This document shows, one piece after another, positions 2,151-54,482 of a stretch of 64,000 nt of DNA. The stretch is taken from contig NZ_VTOU01000004.1 of assembly GCF_008274695.1 (NCBI RefSeq), positions 310,001 through 374,000 on the forward strand, in the 5' to 3' direction. The notes beneath the pieces are model-generated. The model was given only the letters and a program-made list of their open reading frames with translations, searched no databases and had not been told where the DNA came from. Position 1 is the stretch's first letter; every line of letters starts with the position of its first letter. The stretch is from Sphingomonas montanisoli. GTDB lineage: Bacteria; Pseudomonadota; Alphaproteobacteria; Sphingomonadales; Sphingomonadaceae. A program made the position numbers and the translations under genes.

Positions 2151-2262
2151 CTCGTCATTGCGAGCGTGGCGAAGCAATCCAGGCCCGCATGTGAGAGGCT
2201 CGCGACCAACTCCAGTGCGGGCCTGGATTGCTTCGTTGCCTACGGCTCCTCGCAATGACGAG
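2151..2262. repeat. Dispersed palindromic repeat, family A, copy 1 (long form)
   Basis: Begins CTCGTCATTGCGAG and ends CTCGCAATGACGAG, with inner arms GAAGCAATCCAGGCCCG and CGGGCCTGGATTGCTTCG around a central spacer of about 30 bases. The whole unit can fold into one long imperfect hairpin. The same arms recur at 4714, 7365, 13992, 23175, 34160 and, truncated, at 44736. It lies between the muramidase gene and aceA. Apart from this element the 270-base gap to aceA holds only the presumed aceA promoter. Confidence 0.9.
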
Positions 2263-4713: not shown

Positions 4714-4823
4714 TCGTCATTGCGAGAAGCCGCAGGCGACGAAGCAATCCAGGCCCGTAAAGGAGGGGTTCGCGACCTTCCCGGTGCGGGCCTGGATTGC
4801 TTCGCTACGCTCGCAATGACGAG
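4714..4823. repeat. Dispersed palindromic repeat, family A, copy 2 (long form)
   Basis: Runs from TCGTCATTGCGAGAAGC to CTCGCAATGACGAG with inner arms GAAGCAATCCAGGCCCG and GCGGGCCTGGATTGCTTCG. It lies upstream of the OmpA-like gene and just past the 3' end of the VWA gene. Confidence 0.9.
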
Positions 4824-7364: not shown

Positions 7365-7449
7365 CTCGTCATTGCGAGGAGCCGTAAGTGTCGAAGCAAT
7401 CCATCCCGCAGATCGGAGTGGATTGCTTCGCTACGCTCGCAATGACGAG
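7365..7449. repeat. Dispersed palindromic repeat, family A, copy 3 (short form)
   Basis: Outer arms are CTCGTCATTGCGAG and CTCGCAATGACGAG, as in the long copies. The inner arm is GAAGCAATCCAT with the return GTGGATTGCTTCG and a loop of only about 16 bases. It shares this short form with the copy at 34160. It lies between the MFS transporter start and the 3' end of the glycine-zipper gene. Confidence 0.88.
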
Positions 7450-13991: not shown

Positions 13992-14102
13992 CTCGTCATT
14001 GCGAGCGGAGCGAAGCAATCCAGGCCCGCATGAGAGTAGGTCGTGACCATCTCGAATGCGGGCCTGGATTGCTTCGTAGCCTGCGGCTCCTCGCAATGAC
14101 GA
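13992..14102. repeat. Dispersed palindromic repeat, family A, copy 4 (long form)
   Basis: Runs from CTCGTCATTGCGAGCGGAG to CCTCGCAATGACGA with inner arms GAAGCAATCCAGGCCCGCA and GCGGGCCTGGATTGCTTCG. It fills almost the whole gap between the convergent phoD and trmFO genes and could act as their common 3' hairpin. Confidence 0.9.
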
Positions 14103-23174: not shown

Positions 23175-23286
23175 TCGTCATTGCGAGGAGCCGAAGGCGA
23201 CGCGGCAATCCAGGCCCACACGTCAGAGGTTCGCGACCCCTCTCAAGTGCGGGCCTGGATTGCTTCGCTACGCTCGCAATGACGAG
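23175..23286. repeat. Dispersed palindromic repeat, family A, copy 5 (long form)
   Basis: Runs from TCGTCATTGCGAGGAGCCG to CGCTCGCAATGACGAG with inner arms GCAATCCAGGCCCACA and GCGGGCCTGGATTGCTTCG. It lies between the DAHP synthase promoter and the 3' end of the acyl-CoA dehydrogenase operon. Confidence 0.9.
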
Positions 23287-27400: not shown

Positions 27401-29239
27401 ATGAGCGGAGCGATTGACAGGGCCGAGGCGATGCGCCGTGTGATGGCGCCCGGCAGCGATTGGGAAGTCGTGACCGAGACGGTCGATGGCGAGCCACTCC
27501 GCCTGTTCCGCGGCTTCGCGCGCACCTTGCCGGAATTGTACCAGCGCGCGCTCGACACTTATGGTGACCGCATCCTGTTCGTCGATGGTGACGTGCACTT
27601 CACCTATGCCGACATCTTCGGTGAGTCGGCGCGGCTGGCGGTGGCGCTGCGCGATCGATTCGGGGTGGGCGAGGGGACGCGCGTCGGGATCGTGATGCAG
27701 AATTGCCGCGAATATCTGACGAGCTTCACCGCCGTGACTATGCTTGGCGGCGTGGGCGTGCTGATCAACAGCAGGGGCGCGGGTGGCGAGATCGCCCGCG
27801 CGATCGAGGATACCGACTGCGCGCTCGTGATCGGCGACGGCAAGCGGATCGCACGGCTGCTGGCTGCTACTAATCCTCCCCCGCCAGGGGGAGGTGGCGC
27901 CAAAGGCGACGGAGGGGGAGGAAGCGAGACCTTTAGTGAGCCGCCGTCCTCCCCCTCCGTCAACTGCGCTGACACCTCCCCATGGCGGGGGAGGATCGAA
28001 AGAGCCATGCCGCTGATCGTGACCGAGGGCGATCTGCCGGGCGCCACCTCCTATGGCGATCTGGTCGCAGCCGTCCCCGAAACTCCCTTCTTCGCGCGGC
28101 CGGCCGATCCGGGCGAGCTGGCAGCGATGATGTTTACATCGGGCACGACCGGGCGGCCCAAGGGCGCCGCGCTCTCGCATCGCAGCATGCTGGCGGGGCT
28201 GTCGGTCAGCTCGTTCAGCAATGCGGTCGCCGCCGAAATGACTCGCGCTGCGATGGGCCCGGCGGCCGAGCCAATGCTTGCGCGCCAACAGGCGACCATC
28301 ATGATCGCGCCGCTGTTCCATGTCAGTGGACTCCACAATGTCTATCTGCGGACATTGGCGGCGGGCGGCCGGATCTACCGCCTGGCGCGCTGGAATCCCG
28401 AACAGGCGATCCGCCTGATCGCCGAGCATGCGATCGCGTCGATCGGCTGCGTACCGACGATGATGTGGGATATCCTGCGCTCTCCCATCTTTGGCGACCA
28501 CGATCTGTCCAGCCTGCGCTCGATCGGCGCAGGCGGGGCGCCATTCCCCGACAATCTGGTCCGCGAGATGAAGGAAAAGTTGCCCAACTGCACGATCGGC
28601 ATGGGTTATGGGATGACCGAGAGCAACGGCGCGGGCACGAACATCGCCGGCCCCGATCTGGCTGCGCGGCCGGGCGCGGTGGGCAGGCCCAACCCCCTGA
28701 CCGACATCCGCGTCGTCGACGATCACGCGGAGCCGCTGCCGCAGGGCGAGACCGGCGAGATCGCGATGCGCGGATCGGTGGTGATGCAGGGCTATTTCGG
28801 CAATGCCGCAGCCACCGCCGCGAAGATCGTCGACGGCTGGCTGCTGACCGGCGATGTCGGCCGGTTCGACGCGGATGGCTATCTCCATCTCGTCGACCGC
28901 AAGACGCAGATGATCATTTCGGGCGGCGAGAACATCTATTGCGCCGAGGTGGAGGCCGCCTTGTCGACGCATCCGGACGTGCGCGAAGTGGTCGCCGTGG
29001 GCGTGCCCGACGATCGGCTGGGCGAGGCGCTCGTCGCGGCGATCGTGGCGCAGCCGGGGGTGACGATCGATGCAGACGCGCTCGACGCGCATGTTCGCAC
29101 GCGGCTGGCCGACTATAAGGCGCCGCGCGATTATGTGATCCAGTCCGATCCTTTCGATCGCACCGCCAATGCCAAGATCGACCGGCGCGCGGTGACCCAG
29201 ATGGTCCGCGCTCGCTTCGCTGCGGAGACGAGCGCCTGA
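27401..29239 (+). CDS. Acyl-CoA synthetase (AMP-forming) with a repeat-derived insertion
   Basis: A 612-residue ANL-superfamily ligase activating a carboxylic acid to its CoA thioester. The P-loop-like motif is MFTSGTTGRPKGAALSH, followed by GYGMTESNGAGTN, GWLLTGDVGRFDADGYLHLV and DRKTQMIISGGENIYCAEVE, with the catalytic Lys in ANAKIDRRAV. Between residues about 158 and 199 the protein is a low-complexity Pro/Gly-rich stretch that is the in-frame translation of a dispersed intergenic repeat (27873-27996). Downstream of it the reading resumes normally at MPLIVTEGDLPG. Relatives are about 40 residues shorter. The insertion falls in a surface region of the N-terminal domain, so activity may be retained. 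Confidence 0.9.
   Translation: MSGAIDRAEAMRRVMAPGSDWEVVTETVDGEPLRLFRGFARTLPELYQRALDTYGDRILFVDGDVHFTYADIFGESARLAVALRDRFGVGEGTRVGIVMQNCREYLTSFTAVTMLGGVGVLINSRGAGGEIARAIEDTDCALVIGDGKRIARLLAATNPPPPGGGGAKGDGGGGSETFSEPPSSPSVNCADTSPWRGRIERAMPLIVTEGDLPGATSYGDLVAAVPETPFFARPADPGELAAMMFTSGTTGRPKGAALSHRSMLAGLSVSSFSNAVAAEMTRAAMGPAAEPMLARQQATIMIAPLFHVSGLHNVYLRTLAAGGRIYRLARWNPEQAIRLIAEHAIASIGCVPTMMWDILRSPIFGDHDLSSLRSIGAGGAPFPDNLVREMKEKLPNCTIGMGYGMTESNGAGTNIAGPDLAARPGAVGRPNPLTDIRVVDDHAEPLPQGETGEIAMRGSVVMQGYFGNAAATAAKIVDGWLLTGDVGRFDADGYLHLVDRKTQMIISGGENIYCAEVEAALSTHPDVREVVAVGVPDDRLGEALVAAIVAQPGVTIDADALDAHVRTRLADYKAPRDYVIQSDPFDRTANAKIDRRAVTQMVRARFAAETSA
27873..27996. repeat. Dispersed palindromic repeat, family B2, inside a coding sequence
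   Basis: Starts ATCCTCCCCCGCCAGGGGG and ends TGGCGGGGGAGGAT. The inner arms are GGTGGCGCCAAAGGCGACGG and CCGTCAACTGCGCTGACACC. It is nearly identical to the intergenic copy at 52845-52967, yet here it lies inside the acyl-CoA synthetase gene without breaking the frame. Confidence 0.92.
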
Positions 29240-34159: not shown

Positions 34160-34244
34160 CTCGTCATTGCGAGCGAAGCGAAGCAATCCATTCCGAACTG
34201 CGGAGTGGATTGCTTCGTCGCCTTCGGCTCCTCGCAATGACGAG
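34160..34244. repeat. Dispersed palindromic repeat, family A, copy 6 (short form)
   Basis: Runs from CTCGTCATTGCGAGCGAAG to CCTCGCAATGACGAG with inner arms GAAGCAATCCATTCCG and CGGAGTGGATTGCTTCG. It shares the short loop of the copy at 7365. It lies between the amidohydrolase gene and the lon promoter. Confidence 0.88.
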
Positions 34245-44735: not shown

Positions 44736-44786
44736 ATCCACTCCGAACTGCTGACTGGATTGCTTGGCTCCGCTCGCAATGACGAG
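44736..44786. repeat. Truncated family A repeat (right half only)
   Basis: Only the inner and right part of a short-form family A unit remains: AATCCACTCCGAACTG, GGATTGCTTGGCTCCG and the terminal CTCGCAATGACGAG. The left CTCGTCATTGCGAG arm is missing, so it cannot form the full hairpin. The rest of the 247-base gap between zapE and mdh must hold the mdh promoter. Confidence 0.8.
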
Positions 44787-52844: not shown

Positions 52845-52967
52845 ATCCTCCCCCGCCAGGGGGAGGTGGCGCCAAAGGGGACGGACGGGGGAGGGCGCAA
52901 CCAACTAGCGTCCCCGTATCCTCCCCCTCCGTCAGCTGCGCTGACACCTCCCCTGGCGGGGGAGGAT
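52845..52967. repeat. Dispersed palindromic repeat, family B2, intergenic copy
   Basis: Starts ATCCTCCCCCGCCAGGGGG and ends TGGCGGGGGAGGAT, with inner arms GGTGGCGCCAAAGGGGACGG and CCGTCAGCTGCGCTGACACC. It is the close sister of the copy found inside the acyl-CoA synthetase gene at 27873. It lies between lpdA and the TRIC-type channel gene. Confidence 0.92.
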
Positions 52968-54351: not shown

Positions 54352-54482
54352 AATCCTCCCCCGGAGGGGGAGGGGGACCGGCGAAGCCGGTGGAGGGGTA
54401 GCTAGAGATAGAGTGCGTCGCTGCCGGCTAATACCTCTCCACCACCCTGCGGGTGGTCCCCCTCTCCCTCCGGGAGAGGATT
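54352..54482. repeat. Dispersed palindromic repeat, family B1, copy 2
   Basis: Starts AATCCTCCCCCGGAGGGGGA and ends CCCTCCGGGAGAGGATT, with inner arms GGGGGACCGGCGAAGCCGG and CCACCCTGCGGGTGGTCCCC. It fills the gap between the convergent lipoprotein and GNAT genes, as copy 1 does at 37700. Confidence 0.85.

Follow-up and report, generated by a model that had tools for sequence, protein, structure and literature searches.

How does a short palindromic repeat, of a family that mostly adjoins gene ends, come to be read as part of an enzyme, and what spreads such repeats? Bacterial genomes commonly contain short palindromic repeats; the mode of spread of many of them is an old question, and their movement by a transposase had no experimental support according to a 2007 review (PMC2229807). 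We studied one such repeat in Sphingomonas montanisoli, in a window of 64,000 nucleotides (the whole stretch of DNA analysed; contig NZ_VTOU01000004.1, positions 310,001 to 374,000 of the forward strand), together with its relatives in the same genome, in a sister species and in more distant bacteria.

A palindromic element within an acyl-CoA synthetase gene

A first-pass annotation had reported a 124-base repeat inside an acyl-CoA synthetase gene, and we found it there, on the plus strand of the open reading frame. The features of the window are as follows:

27401..29239, plus strand: acyl-CoA synthetase gene (ANL / AMP-binding), host of the insertion; intact open reading frame of 612 amino acids
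27873..27996, plus strand: in-gene palindromic element of family 1; 124 bases, a near-perfect palindrome forming one long hairpin
27873..27896, plus strand: left outer arm, which forms a small hairpin of its own (CCTCCCC..GGGGAGG); from genome-wide arm counts
27897..27909, plus strand: left inner hairpin, GGCGCC..GGCG type; from an alignment of 30 copies (the opposite type lies on this side in the sister-species orthologue)
27910..27922, plus strand: left half of the central stem; from the fold
27923..27946, plus strand: variable loop, the position of the DUF559 gene in nuclease-bearing relatives; from comparison of copies and loci
27947..27959, plus strand: right half of the central stem; from the fold
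27960..27972, plus strand: right inner hairpin, TCAGC..GCTGA type; from copy alignments
27973..27996, plus strand: right outer arm; from the fold and arm counts
52845..52967, plus strand: intergenic family-1 copy directly after a stop codon; from a profile match
54353..54481 (C10:364353-364481), plus strand: weak family-profile match (19.5 bits), a second-family sequence (ATCCTCCCCC..GGGGGACC..GGTGGAGGGG)

The in-gene element folds with a minimum free energy of -97.7 kcal/mol (z = -10.4; 0 of 200 shuffles as good), and its 24-bp arms are the terminal inverted repeats of the family. It runs from ATCCTC to GAGGAT, lacks GTAG on the plus strand, and carries CGTC internally only, with none at an element end. 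A match to a known RNA was rejected: all 17 Rfam matches of the hairpin (16 miRNA rows and one sRNA) fell far below the gathering scores and were ascribed to chance.

Allowing at most 3 mismatches, the 24-base arm occurs 79 + 74 times in the own genome (G000), while the reversed control gave 0 occurrences. Near-full copies numbered 66, drawn from 84 profile matches in selected stretches of the genome (40 of 160 candidates scored; 100 of 153 arm places listed), and just one of these, the synthetase copy, lies inside a coding sequence; of the other 65, 60 are next to the end of a gene, and 52 have their start no more than 15 nt from a stop codon. That a repeat of this family can become protein-coding, as had been claimed, is thus borne out by an in-frame copy in a gene under purifying selection, but as a rare event. 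The near-identity that had been noted with the copy at 52845 stands as a resemblance, but of the copies examined C1:874919-875042 comes closest, being identical to the in-gene element at 119 of 124 positions (96%). This twin is a possible donor, or equally a possible recipient, relative to the in-gene copy. The flanks of 59 copies, inspected by eye, had no obvious target-site duplication, and no clean empty site was available for comparison.

Predicted nuclease genes enclosed by palindromes

Longer relatives of the element enclose a gene of the DUF559 family. The two found in the own genome are:

C8:128025-128510: DUF559 gene (C8:128105) within family-1 arms
C8:129390-129871: DUF559 gene (C8:129508) within family-1 arms

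One of the two is intact, and both lie outside the window. The right arm encodes the C-terminus of the protein, and DUF559 was the sole enclosed gene met among the family-1 copies read. In fold comparisons the protein matched 3hrl (Z 14.8, rmsd 1.2, 93 residues aligned), the endonuclease I-Bth0305I (3r3p_A; Z 12.3, rmsd 2.5, 96 aligned) and Vsr (1cw0_A; Z 9.9, rmsd 2.2, 100 aligned), the Vsr match being tied with rows of mitochondrial ribosomal proteins (Z 9.3). A sequence search also linked it to 3r3p (E about 1e-4); PDB sequence matches past the first two, namely two restriction-enzyme entries (E 0.07) and toxin B subunits (E 0.3-1), were left unused. Eight positions (E24, W28, Q43, D52, E63, D65, G66 and H69) are invariant in 61 sequences. 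By these models, DUF559 is here a predicted nuclease with a Vsr- or homing-endonuclease-like fold.

We then scored inverted repeats around DUF559 genes more widely. Within the genus, they surrounded 41 of 46 loci at a score above 18 and 42 of 46 above 15 (46 of 51 DUF559 rows, five partial or duplicate rows being omitted), as against 4 and 5 of 118 control short genes and 1 and 3 of 400 random places. At the level of the class, where the 30 best-scoring loci were taken, one per genome, from 67 genomes with a match, the counts were 17 and 18 of 30 (shifted controls: 0 and 1 of 59). Named plasmid records, 12 of 29 hand-picked for taxonomic spread with E. coli, Neisseria and near-duplicates excluded, gave 7 of 12 at both thresholds versus 2 of 24 in the control. 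A clear inverted repeat was absent at 12 of the 30 class-level and 5 of the 12 named loci. Some of the loci from other orders had the palindromic context, as did one plasmid tested from a different phylum. Of 60 loops, 54 could be parsed.

Within the genus, genomes have from 0 to 8 DUF559 matches each, and the arm family of the loci varies as well; arm similarity tracks DUF559 protein identity (r = 0.72 over 27 loci; 0 of 5000 permutations as good). Such covariation shows long joint inheritance, not function. A co-occurrence of repeat and DUF559 across 14 genomes (Fisher p 0.03) was discarded as circular, the locus being defined by its arms.

Two of the four palindrome-enclosed short genes of the control turned out to be GIY-YIG nucleases, lying in a "CGTC" palindrome family. 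All 4 tblastn matches in two regions (two orthologous sites) placed GIY-YIG genes in CGTC-type palindromes, and so did 7 of 8 named loci versus 0 of 16 shifted places (8 of 32 records, again hand-picked for taxonomic spread, E. coli, Neisseria and near-duplicates excluded). Elsewhere in the window, GTCATTGCGAG is found in other palindromes. A second, unrelated nuclease family has the same layout with a different palindrome family. In the open-access literature searched, including the accessible portions of PMC12907096, PMC6712171 and PMC12308824, we found no report linking DUF559 or GIY-YIG to palindromic repeats. The layout around two unrelated nuclease families gives the question of spread named, testable enzymes, and it suggests a role for DUF559, which is still a domain of unknown function in Pfam.

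Passenger, host repair enzyme or spreader

The enclosed DUF559 gene is a good candidate for the spreader of such repeats, and two other explanations of its position have to be weighed. In the first, the repeats are ordinary MITEs moved by an IS transposase encoded elsewhere in the genome, with the DUF559 and GIY-YIG genes as passengers that the loop has captured. Family 1 does resemble MITEs: it is small and abundant, has 24-bp terminal inverted repeats, and has a longer relative with the same ends that encloses an enzyme gene, here for a nuclease and not a transposase; covariation of arms and protein is also expected of a passenger captured long ago. The sister species (G006) is in keeping with this explanation, as it has about 54 family-1 copies (108 arms) and no intact family-1 DUF559 gene was found there (the arms at loci L269 and L281 are of other kinds, and there is one further partial match), so that mobility in G006 would need a recent nuclease loss or outside help. 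However, arms of many kinds enclose DUF559 at 41 of 46 genus loci tested, no other enclosed gene was met in the family-1 copies read, and the unrelated GIY-YIG family shares the layout in another palindrome family. A search limited to the RAYT domain Y1_Tnp (PF01797, E<=0.01) also speaks against it, with 0 matches in the own genome and matches in 6 of 14 control genomes. We regard a MITE with captured passengers as unlikely, though deserving serious attention.

The second explanation takes DUF559 as a very short patch repair enzyme of the host, a kind that nicks T:G mismatches at methylated motifs and is usually linked to a cytosine methylase, and the palindromes as signals at transcript or mRNA 3' ends, the association being positional since both favour gene ends. 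The 52 of 65 copies close to a stop codon are in line with it, and so is Caulobacter VsrA, a DUF559 protein that, according to PMC12907096, is needed for an SOS response in cells without a cytosine methylase and is read as a VSP mismatch repair enzyme. VsrA belongs to the same domain family as the palindrome-borne proteins, and the terms "inverted repeat" and "palindrom" are absent from the main text of that paper. Against a merely positional association, the two flanks pair as complementary arms of a single palindrome type and the gene sits in the middle, short genes in general gave 4 of 118 (two of these being the GIY-YIG nucleases), and genomes of one genus differ in how many DUF559 loci they have and in the arm family of these. 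We consider this explanation improbable.

Age of the insertion and turnover of its occupant

The segment is missing from distant homologues, in all 43 aligned rows (42 distinct sequences, 39-55% identity in the C-terminal part), which are 37-42 residues shorter at the insert site and exactly 40 shorter in 35 of the 43; the first-pass annotation had anticipated a difference of about 41-42. The segment is therefore not an old part of the enzyme family, shared by all orthologues. By contrast with the distant rows, the one close orthologue found, that of G006 (87% amino acid and 86% nucleotide identity), carries the segment in frame at the corresponding position, and because of this a recent insertion into the synthetase is ruled out. 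Among 397 genomes drawn from the family, G006 was the only one besides the own genome with more than 46% identity in a match at E<=1e-98. A comparison of the gene with plasmids returned 231 records; their identity was 60-80% throughout, and coverage of the gene stayed below 80% in each. Judged from these alignments, the insertion predates the split of the two sister species, and its occupant has changed since.

The in-gene copies of the two species are identical at 102 of 124 positions when aligned forward and 104 of 132 when inverted; since the inverted alignment is no better, a simple inversion is unsupported. Their inner hairpins are swapped, as in 3 of 7 orthologous pairs overall. It could be argued that two independent insertions struck the same codon, as the copies match at only 102 of 124 positions with swapped hairpins in a gene that is 86% identical overall. 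Yet both copies start after the same host sequence (..CTAATCC) in the same frame, and 2 of the 6 other orthologous pairs are swapped likewise, so that replacement at occupied sites seems common; we find a double insertion very improbable.

Turnover was followed at 16 anchored sites where C10, or the matching part of G006, carries a strong copy. Two sites had a family-1 copy in both species (one truncated in G000), one a family-2 copy, four a short hairpin or what is left of an arm (weak in one case), six another foldable sequence and one none, and two were without clear assignment. The G006 place orthologous to the 52845 copy holds a different, strongly folding sequence, and the place orthologous to the C1:874919 twin holds no palindrome. 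By this last comparison, family 1 was still active after the split, if the C1:874919 copy was not instead lost in G006. The earlier view that the element is mobile, or was so recently, therefore holds for the family, whose copies turn over, and fails for the insertion into the synthetase.

The enzyme is maintained around the insert

The synthetase has the domains AMP-binding (PF00501) and AMP-binding_C (PF13193), and its model (pLDDT 89) matches the structure 3t5c_A (Z 44.2, rmsd 2.0 over 389 residues). Confidence falls below 50 at residues 164-194 alone, inside the insert (residues about 158-199, PPPPGGGG...DTSPWRGR), and the segment is predicted to be disordered. Between G000 and G006, dN/dS was 0.138 before the insert, 1.241 in it and 0.162 after it; in both species purifying selection acts on the enzyme but not on the insert. 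As had been proposed, the frame is kept on both sides: it is open across both junctions, with no stop codon in either species. Since 124 is not a multiple of 3, keeping the frame needed a further net change at the junctions, and the 3' junction differs by a 6-nt indel between the two species. The downstream motifs are intact, as reported before, in that the columns invariant among 57 homologues (e.g., T246-T249, G251, E407, D485 and R500), which we take to be the catalytic motifs, are unbroken. It is hardly credible that the element has split the gene, leaving the downstream part as a separate reading frame or pseudogene: an in-frame ATG at 28007 in G000, just 3' of the element, would suit this, but the absence of stop codons, the 6-nt junction indel, the low dN/dS on both sides and the intact columns all oppose it.

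A possible route of spread

Returning to the nuclease as spreader, we lean slightly towards reading the synthetase segment as the gene-less form of a mobile palindrome with nuclease-driven spread, which landed in frame and has been tolerated since before the species split. The 125-bp repeats of family 1 look like gene-less relatives of the nuclease-bearing palindromes. They probably spread by cut-and-copy repair, the association being observed and the mechanism inferred. The predicted nuclease would cut short gene-end palindromes or unoccupied sites, and the break would be repaired by copying a longer palindrome, with the arms supplying homology; as the arms are inverted repeats, the interior could be copied in either orientation. 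Internal deletion would then give the 125-bp gene-less form and the short hairpins. The landing in a surface loop of the synthetase may have survived because stop codons are scarce in the arms and because the loop entered was dispensable. Loss of the in-gene element would be harmful unless it kept the frame, so the site may persist while its sequence is open to overwriting. The in-gene copy illustrates a route into protein, through a dispensable surface loop with the frame kept, that has outlasted a speciation; it drifts as protein, and the palindromic arms stay conserved.

More tentatively, and with some doubt, alpha-proteobacterial (and wider) intergenic palindromes may be a selfish class that spreads by palindrome homing, with DUF559 for the CCTCCCC type and GIY-YIG for CGTC; copies without a gene would be carried along and now and then become protein-coding. 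If true, CGTC REPs and Rickettsia-like coding palindromes would thereby gain the mover that they have so far lacked.

Comparison with known systems

The published systems are compared here as described in the papers cited. REPtrons (GTAG REPs with a RAYT; PMC3733652) likewise combine short palindromic repeats with related copies flanking an enzyme gene, but here the enzyme is a Vsr-like or GIY-YIG nuclease instead of a tyrosine HUH transposase, family 1 lacks the GTAG tag and the own genome lacks a Y1_Tnp match, for which reason a RAYT-REP system was ruled out. I-Bth0305I (3r3p) and free-standing GIY-YIG homing endonucleases (PMC1564403) share the nuclease folds, the small selfish passenger gene and gene conversion at cut sites; unlike them, the genes here sit in the loop of a dispersed palindrome whose gene-less copies are abundant. 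At one G000 DUF559 locus, with CCCTCTCCCG arms, the searched arm had no dispersed copies beyond the locus, a purely descriptive observation that counts against nuclease-driven spread. The Caulobacter CIR repeats, intergenic inverted repeats of about 110 bp in alpha-proteobacteria with a conserved GANTC (PMC2229807), were ruled out as the identity of family 1, since GANTC is present in 9 of 66 copies only and not in the in-gene one.

CGTC REPs are palindromes, mostly head-to-head dimers, found mainly in alpha-Proteobacteria and mostly downstream of genes, sometimes within them, and seem to have no transposase dedicated to their movement (Di Nocera et al., 2013; PMC3733652). Family 1 differs in having no CGTC tag, which the neighbouring CGTC-type family does have, and the CGTC-type palindromes studied here enclose GIY-YIG genes also in A. 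lipoferum and S. meliloti, species named in that paper. Comparable by description to the in-gene element are the Rickettsia palindromic elements (RPE), palindromes of 105-146 bp with long stem-loops that lie in frame in protein genes and are tolerated (Ogata et al., 2000, reviewed in PMC2229807), reported in 19 reading frames and, in the portions of that review at hand, not linked to a nuclease as family 1 is. Like them, the in-gene element (124 bp) has a long stem-loop, is in frame and is absent from distant homologues; unlike them, family 1 has only 1 of its 66 copies in a reading frame.

An in-frame palindromic repeat in an acyl-CoA synthetase gene

The first-pass annotation had reported that an intergenic repeat lies in frame inside an acyl-CoA synthetase gene, and the 124 bases at 27873–27996 are indeed present as claimed within this 612-codon gene (27401–29239, + strand). 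The segment is a copy of family 1, a palindromic repeat of ~125 bp, and folds into a single long hairpin (MFE −97.7 kcal/mol; z −10.4). The family-1 element has a nested layout: outermost are two 24-base arms, each a small hairpin in its own right, and between them lie two unlike inner hairpins and a central stem with a variable loop. The family-1 arm ATCCTCCCCCGCCAGGGGGAGGTG gave 79 + 74 matches in the S. montanisoli genome (≤3 mismatches) compared to 0 for a reversed control, suggesting that this genome holds roughly 75–80 elements. Of 120 copy orientations (60 copies), 61 are open in frame 0 of the element, 43 in frame 1, and 67 in frame 2, indicating that there are few stop codons in arms and loops.

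Among 397 genomes sampled from the bacterial family, a close orthologue of the synthetase was found only in the sister species (G006; 88% over the C-terminal part; next match: 46%), and it carries the segment in frame at the identical position, where the 3′ junction differs by a 6-nt indel. The expectation that orthologues lacking the repeat would be 41–42 residues shorter was borne out, approximately, by distant homologues, which are 37–42 residues shorter (exactly 40 in 35/43). The segment is not an old part of the protein family shared by all orthologues: a gap stands at the insert position in 43/43 more distant homologue rows (42 distinct; 39–55% identity over the C-terminal part). Since the sister species has the segment at the same place and the 43 distant rows do not, the insertion predates the split of the two species. 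Neither a clean empty site nor a target duplication was found for this copy.

Comparison of the two species gave dN/dS values of 0.138 before the insert, 1.241 within it, and 0.162 after it, and dS within the insert (0.18) was below that outside (0.42–0.47); as protein the insert looks unconstrained, with its DNA arms conserved. The AlphaFold2 model of the synthetase (57-row alignment; mean pLDDT 89) has the ANL fold (8wev_B: Z 45.2, rmsd 8.6 over 454; 3t5c_A: Z 44.2, rmsd 2.0 over 389), and its only stretch with pLDDT <50 is residues 164–194, i.e., the insert.

Turnover of palindromes at gene ends

We examined the surroundings of 66 near-full-length copies (≥101 of 126 profile positions, >60 bits), calling genes in the flanks with a simple purpose-made hexamer gene finder. 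Only the synthetase copy lies inside a CDS (1/66). Of the remaining 65, 60 are next to at least one gene 3′ end, 52 lie ≤15 nt from a stop codon, and 29 are between convergent genes.

We then compared a 378-kb contig of S. montanisoli with the syntenic 400 kb of the sister species, in which 21 strong copies, three of them without an anchor, left 16 sites. Both species have a family-1 copy at two sites (the in-gene site and one whose S. montanisoli copy is without an outer arm). The counterpart is a copy of the related family 2 at one site, a short hairpin or a leftover arm that keeps the family's outer sequence at four (one weak), and an unrelated segment with a stronger fold than ≥57 of 60 random ones at six; one site has no counterpart and two could not be classed. 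Gene ends act like slots, filled by turns by palindromes of different families. A possible centre-deleted form, with two family-1 arms nearly touching (7 bp apart), was seen in the sister species at G006:C4:149709–149763.

The in-gene copies of the two species are identical at 102/124 positions, with inner hairpins exchanged left to right, as also at 2/6 other orthologous copy pairs. Plain inversion is unsupported for the in-gene pair, since the inverted alignment gives 104/132 compared to 102/124 forward. The S. montanisoli in-gene copy has a closer match on a different contig, at C1:874919 (119/124 identical, loop included), a pair that ranks fifth among 2145 copy pairs (median pair: 85%). 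Since the sister species has no palindrome at the place matching C1:874919, family 1 has probably been active since the split. Another orthologous pair (L011/L214) is 124/125 identical, with flanks only ~90% identical.

DUF559 nuclease genes inside palindromes

Two family-1 elements, ~880 bp apart, have arms enclosing ~385 bp that encode a DUF559 (small-nuclease domain) protein:

DUF559-bearing family-1 elements in S. montanisoli
G000:C8:128025–128510, intact
G000:C8:129390–129871 (L236:4390–4875), frameshifted near the N-terminus

In the intact copy the ORF is open, with the right arm coding for its C-terminus, and it ends at the element edge. In 54 gene-less copies, the loop ends are similar to the interior ends of the nuclease copies (right 12 nt: 5.7 mean matches compared to 3.2 shuffled; left 8 nt: 4.0 compared to 2.2), a modest likeness that fits internal deletion making gene-less copies.

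To score enclosure, we compared inverted repeats between the 350 bp on either side of each DUF559 match (counts are scores >18; those >15 in brackets). In the genus, 41 (42) of 46 loci were enclosed; the controls gave 1 (3) among 400 random places and 4 (5) among 118 short genes (Fisher 2e-28). The five loci without a detected repeat were at contig ends (L278, L290), partial matches (L286, L305), or L293. A class sample (not random) gave 17 (18)/30 compared to 0 (1)/59 shifted windows, with 12/30 lacking a detected inverted repeat even at >15. Named plasmid records (not random) gave 7 (7)/12 compared to 2 (2)/24 shifted: enclosed genes were found in Novosphingobium THN1, Sphingobium RAC03, three Sphingomonas parapaucimobilis plasmids, Azospirillum lipoferum, and Deinococcus proteolyticus, and no repeat was detected in two other Azospirillum, Sinorhizobium, Picosynechococcus, and Photobacterium. 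In D. proteolyticus, of another phylum, the gene on plasmid pDEIPR03 (L345) is enclosed by a 56-bp inverted repeat.

Arms vary widely among genus DUF559 loci, and their similarity tracks DUF559 identity (27 loci; r 0.72; 0/5000 permutations), showing that each gene is passed on together with its arms. Family-1 arms were seen in 3/14 genus genomes (S. montanisoli: 136; sister species: 108; G001: 49); a DUF559 locus with such arms is present in S. montanisoli and G001, and no intact one was found in the sister species. Another arm occurs at 15 places in G001 and six in G011, both of which carry DUF559 inside it; in S. montanisoli this arm is confined to a single DUF559 locus. The THN1 arm occurs at six places in its plasmid.

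Eight DUF559 residues are invariant across 61 sequences (E24, W28, Q43, D52, E63, D65, G66, H69). In the PDB, the profile recovers 3hrl (E 5e-40) and, at E 1e-4, 3r3p, a mobile intron protein. The structural model (pLDDT 89) matches 3hrl (Z 14.8; rmsd 1.2; 93 aligned), the homing endonuclease I-Bth0305I (3r3p_A: Z 12.3; rmsd 2.5; 96 aligned), and Vsr (1cw0_A: Z 9.9; rmsd 2.2; 100 aligned), the last tied with mitoribosomal rows at 9.3. The Caulobacter DUF559 protein VsrA is described as needed for an SOS response in cells without a cytosine methylase (PMC12907096).

GIY-YIG nucleases inside CGTC-type palindromes

Two of the four short control genes scoring >18 encode GIY-YIG nucleases (PF01541; E 2e-14 and 6e-12), both in palindromes with CGTC or GTCATTGCGAG ends:

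Small GIY-YIG genes in CGTC-type palindromes, kept in the sister species
G000:C10:278621–278908 (L165)
G000:C10:295678–295965 (L166)

All four tblastn matches of the two proteins in the two regions were enclosed. Among named plasmid loci (not random), 7/8 were enclosed by similar arms (GTCATCC.., CGTCGCC.., or GTCACCC..) compared to 0/16 shifted controls, the exception being Rhizobium K1/93; one Shinella arm occurs at 11 places in its own record. A 2013 description of CGTC repeats covers, among other species, A. lipoferum and S. meliloti and remarks that these repeats apparently have no transposase of their own; Rickettsia RPE-4 and RPE-6 are counted among them (PMC3733652). Between sufB and sufC, A. 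lipoferum has a GIY-YIG gene (L351) and S. parapaucimobilis a DUF559 gene (L340), i.e., different nuclease-bearing palindromes in two bacterial orders. The window itself holds 13 GTCATTGCGAG matches (0.09 expected), one of them single and the others forming six inverted pairs; these pairs are palindromes of the kind found around a GIY-YIG nuclease at other places in this genome:

Matches to GTCATTGCGAG in the window
2154–2259, both strands, inverted pair
4716–4820, both strands, inverted pair
7368–7446, both strands, inverted pair
13995–14100, both strands, inverted pair
23177–23283, both strands, inverted pair
34163–34241, both strands, inverted pair
44773–44783, lone match

A possible route of spread

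Our observations are of nuclease–palindrome associations only, from which we infer that the nuclease may drive palindrome spread. It would cut short palindromic or unoccupied sites at gene ends, and break repair would copy a longer palindrome in via the inverted arms, in either orientation. Such cutting and copying, if true, would explain why inner hairpins are exchanged and occupants swapped, why some counterparts are short hairpins, and why copies without a gene exist. In experimentally evolved Legionella, recombination calls, unconfirmed by the authors, are reported to cluster at repeated GIY-YIG and DUF559 genes, which is no more than a hint; the DUF559 segment there also contains a transposase (PMC12308824).
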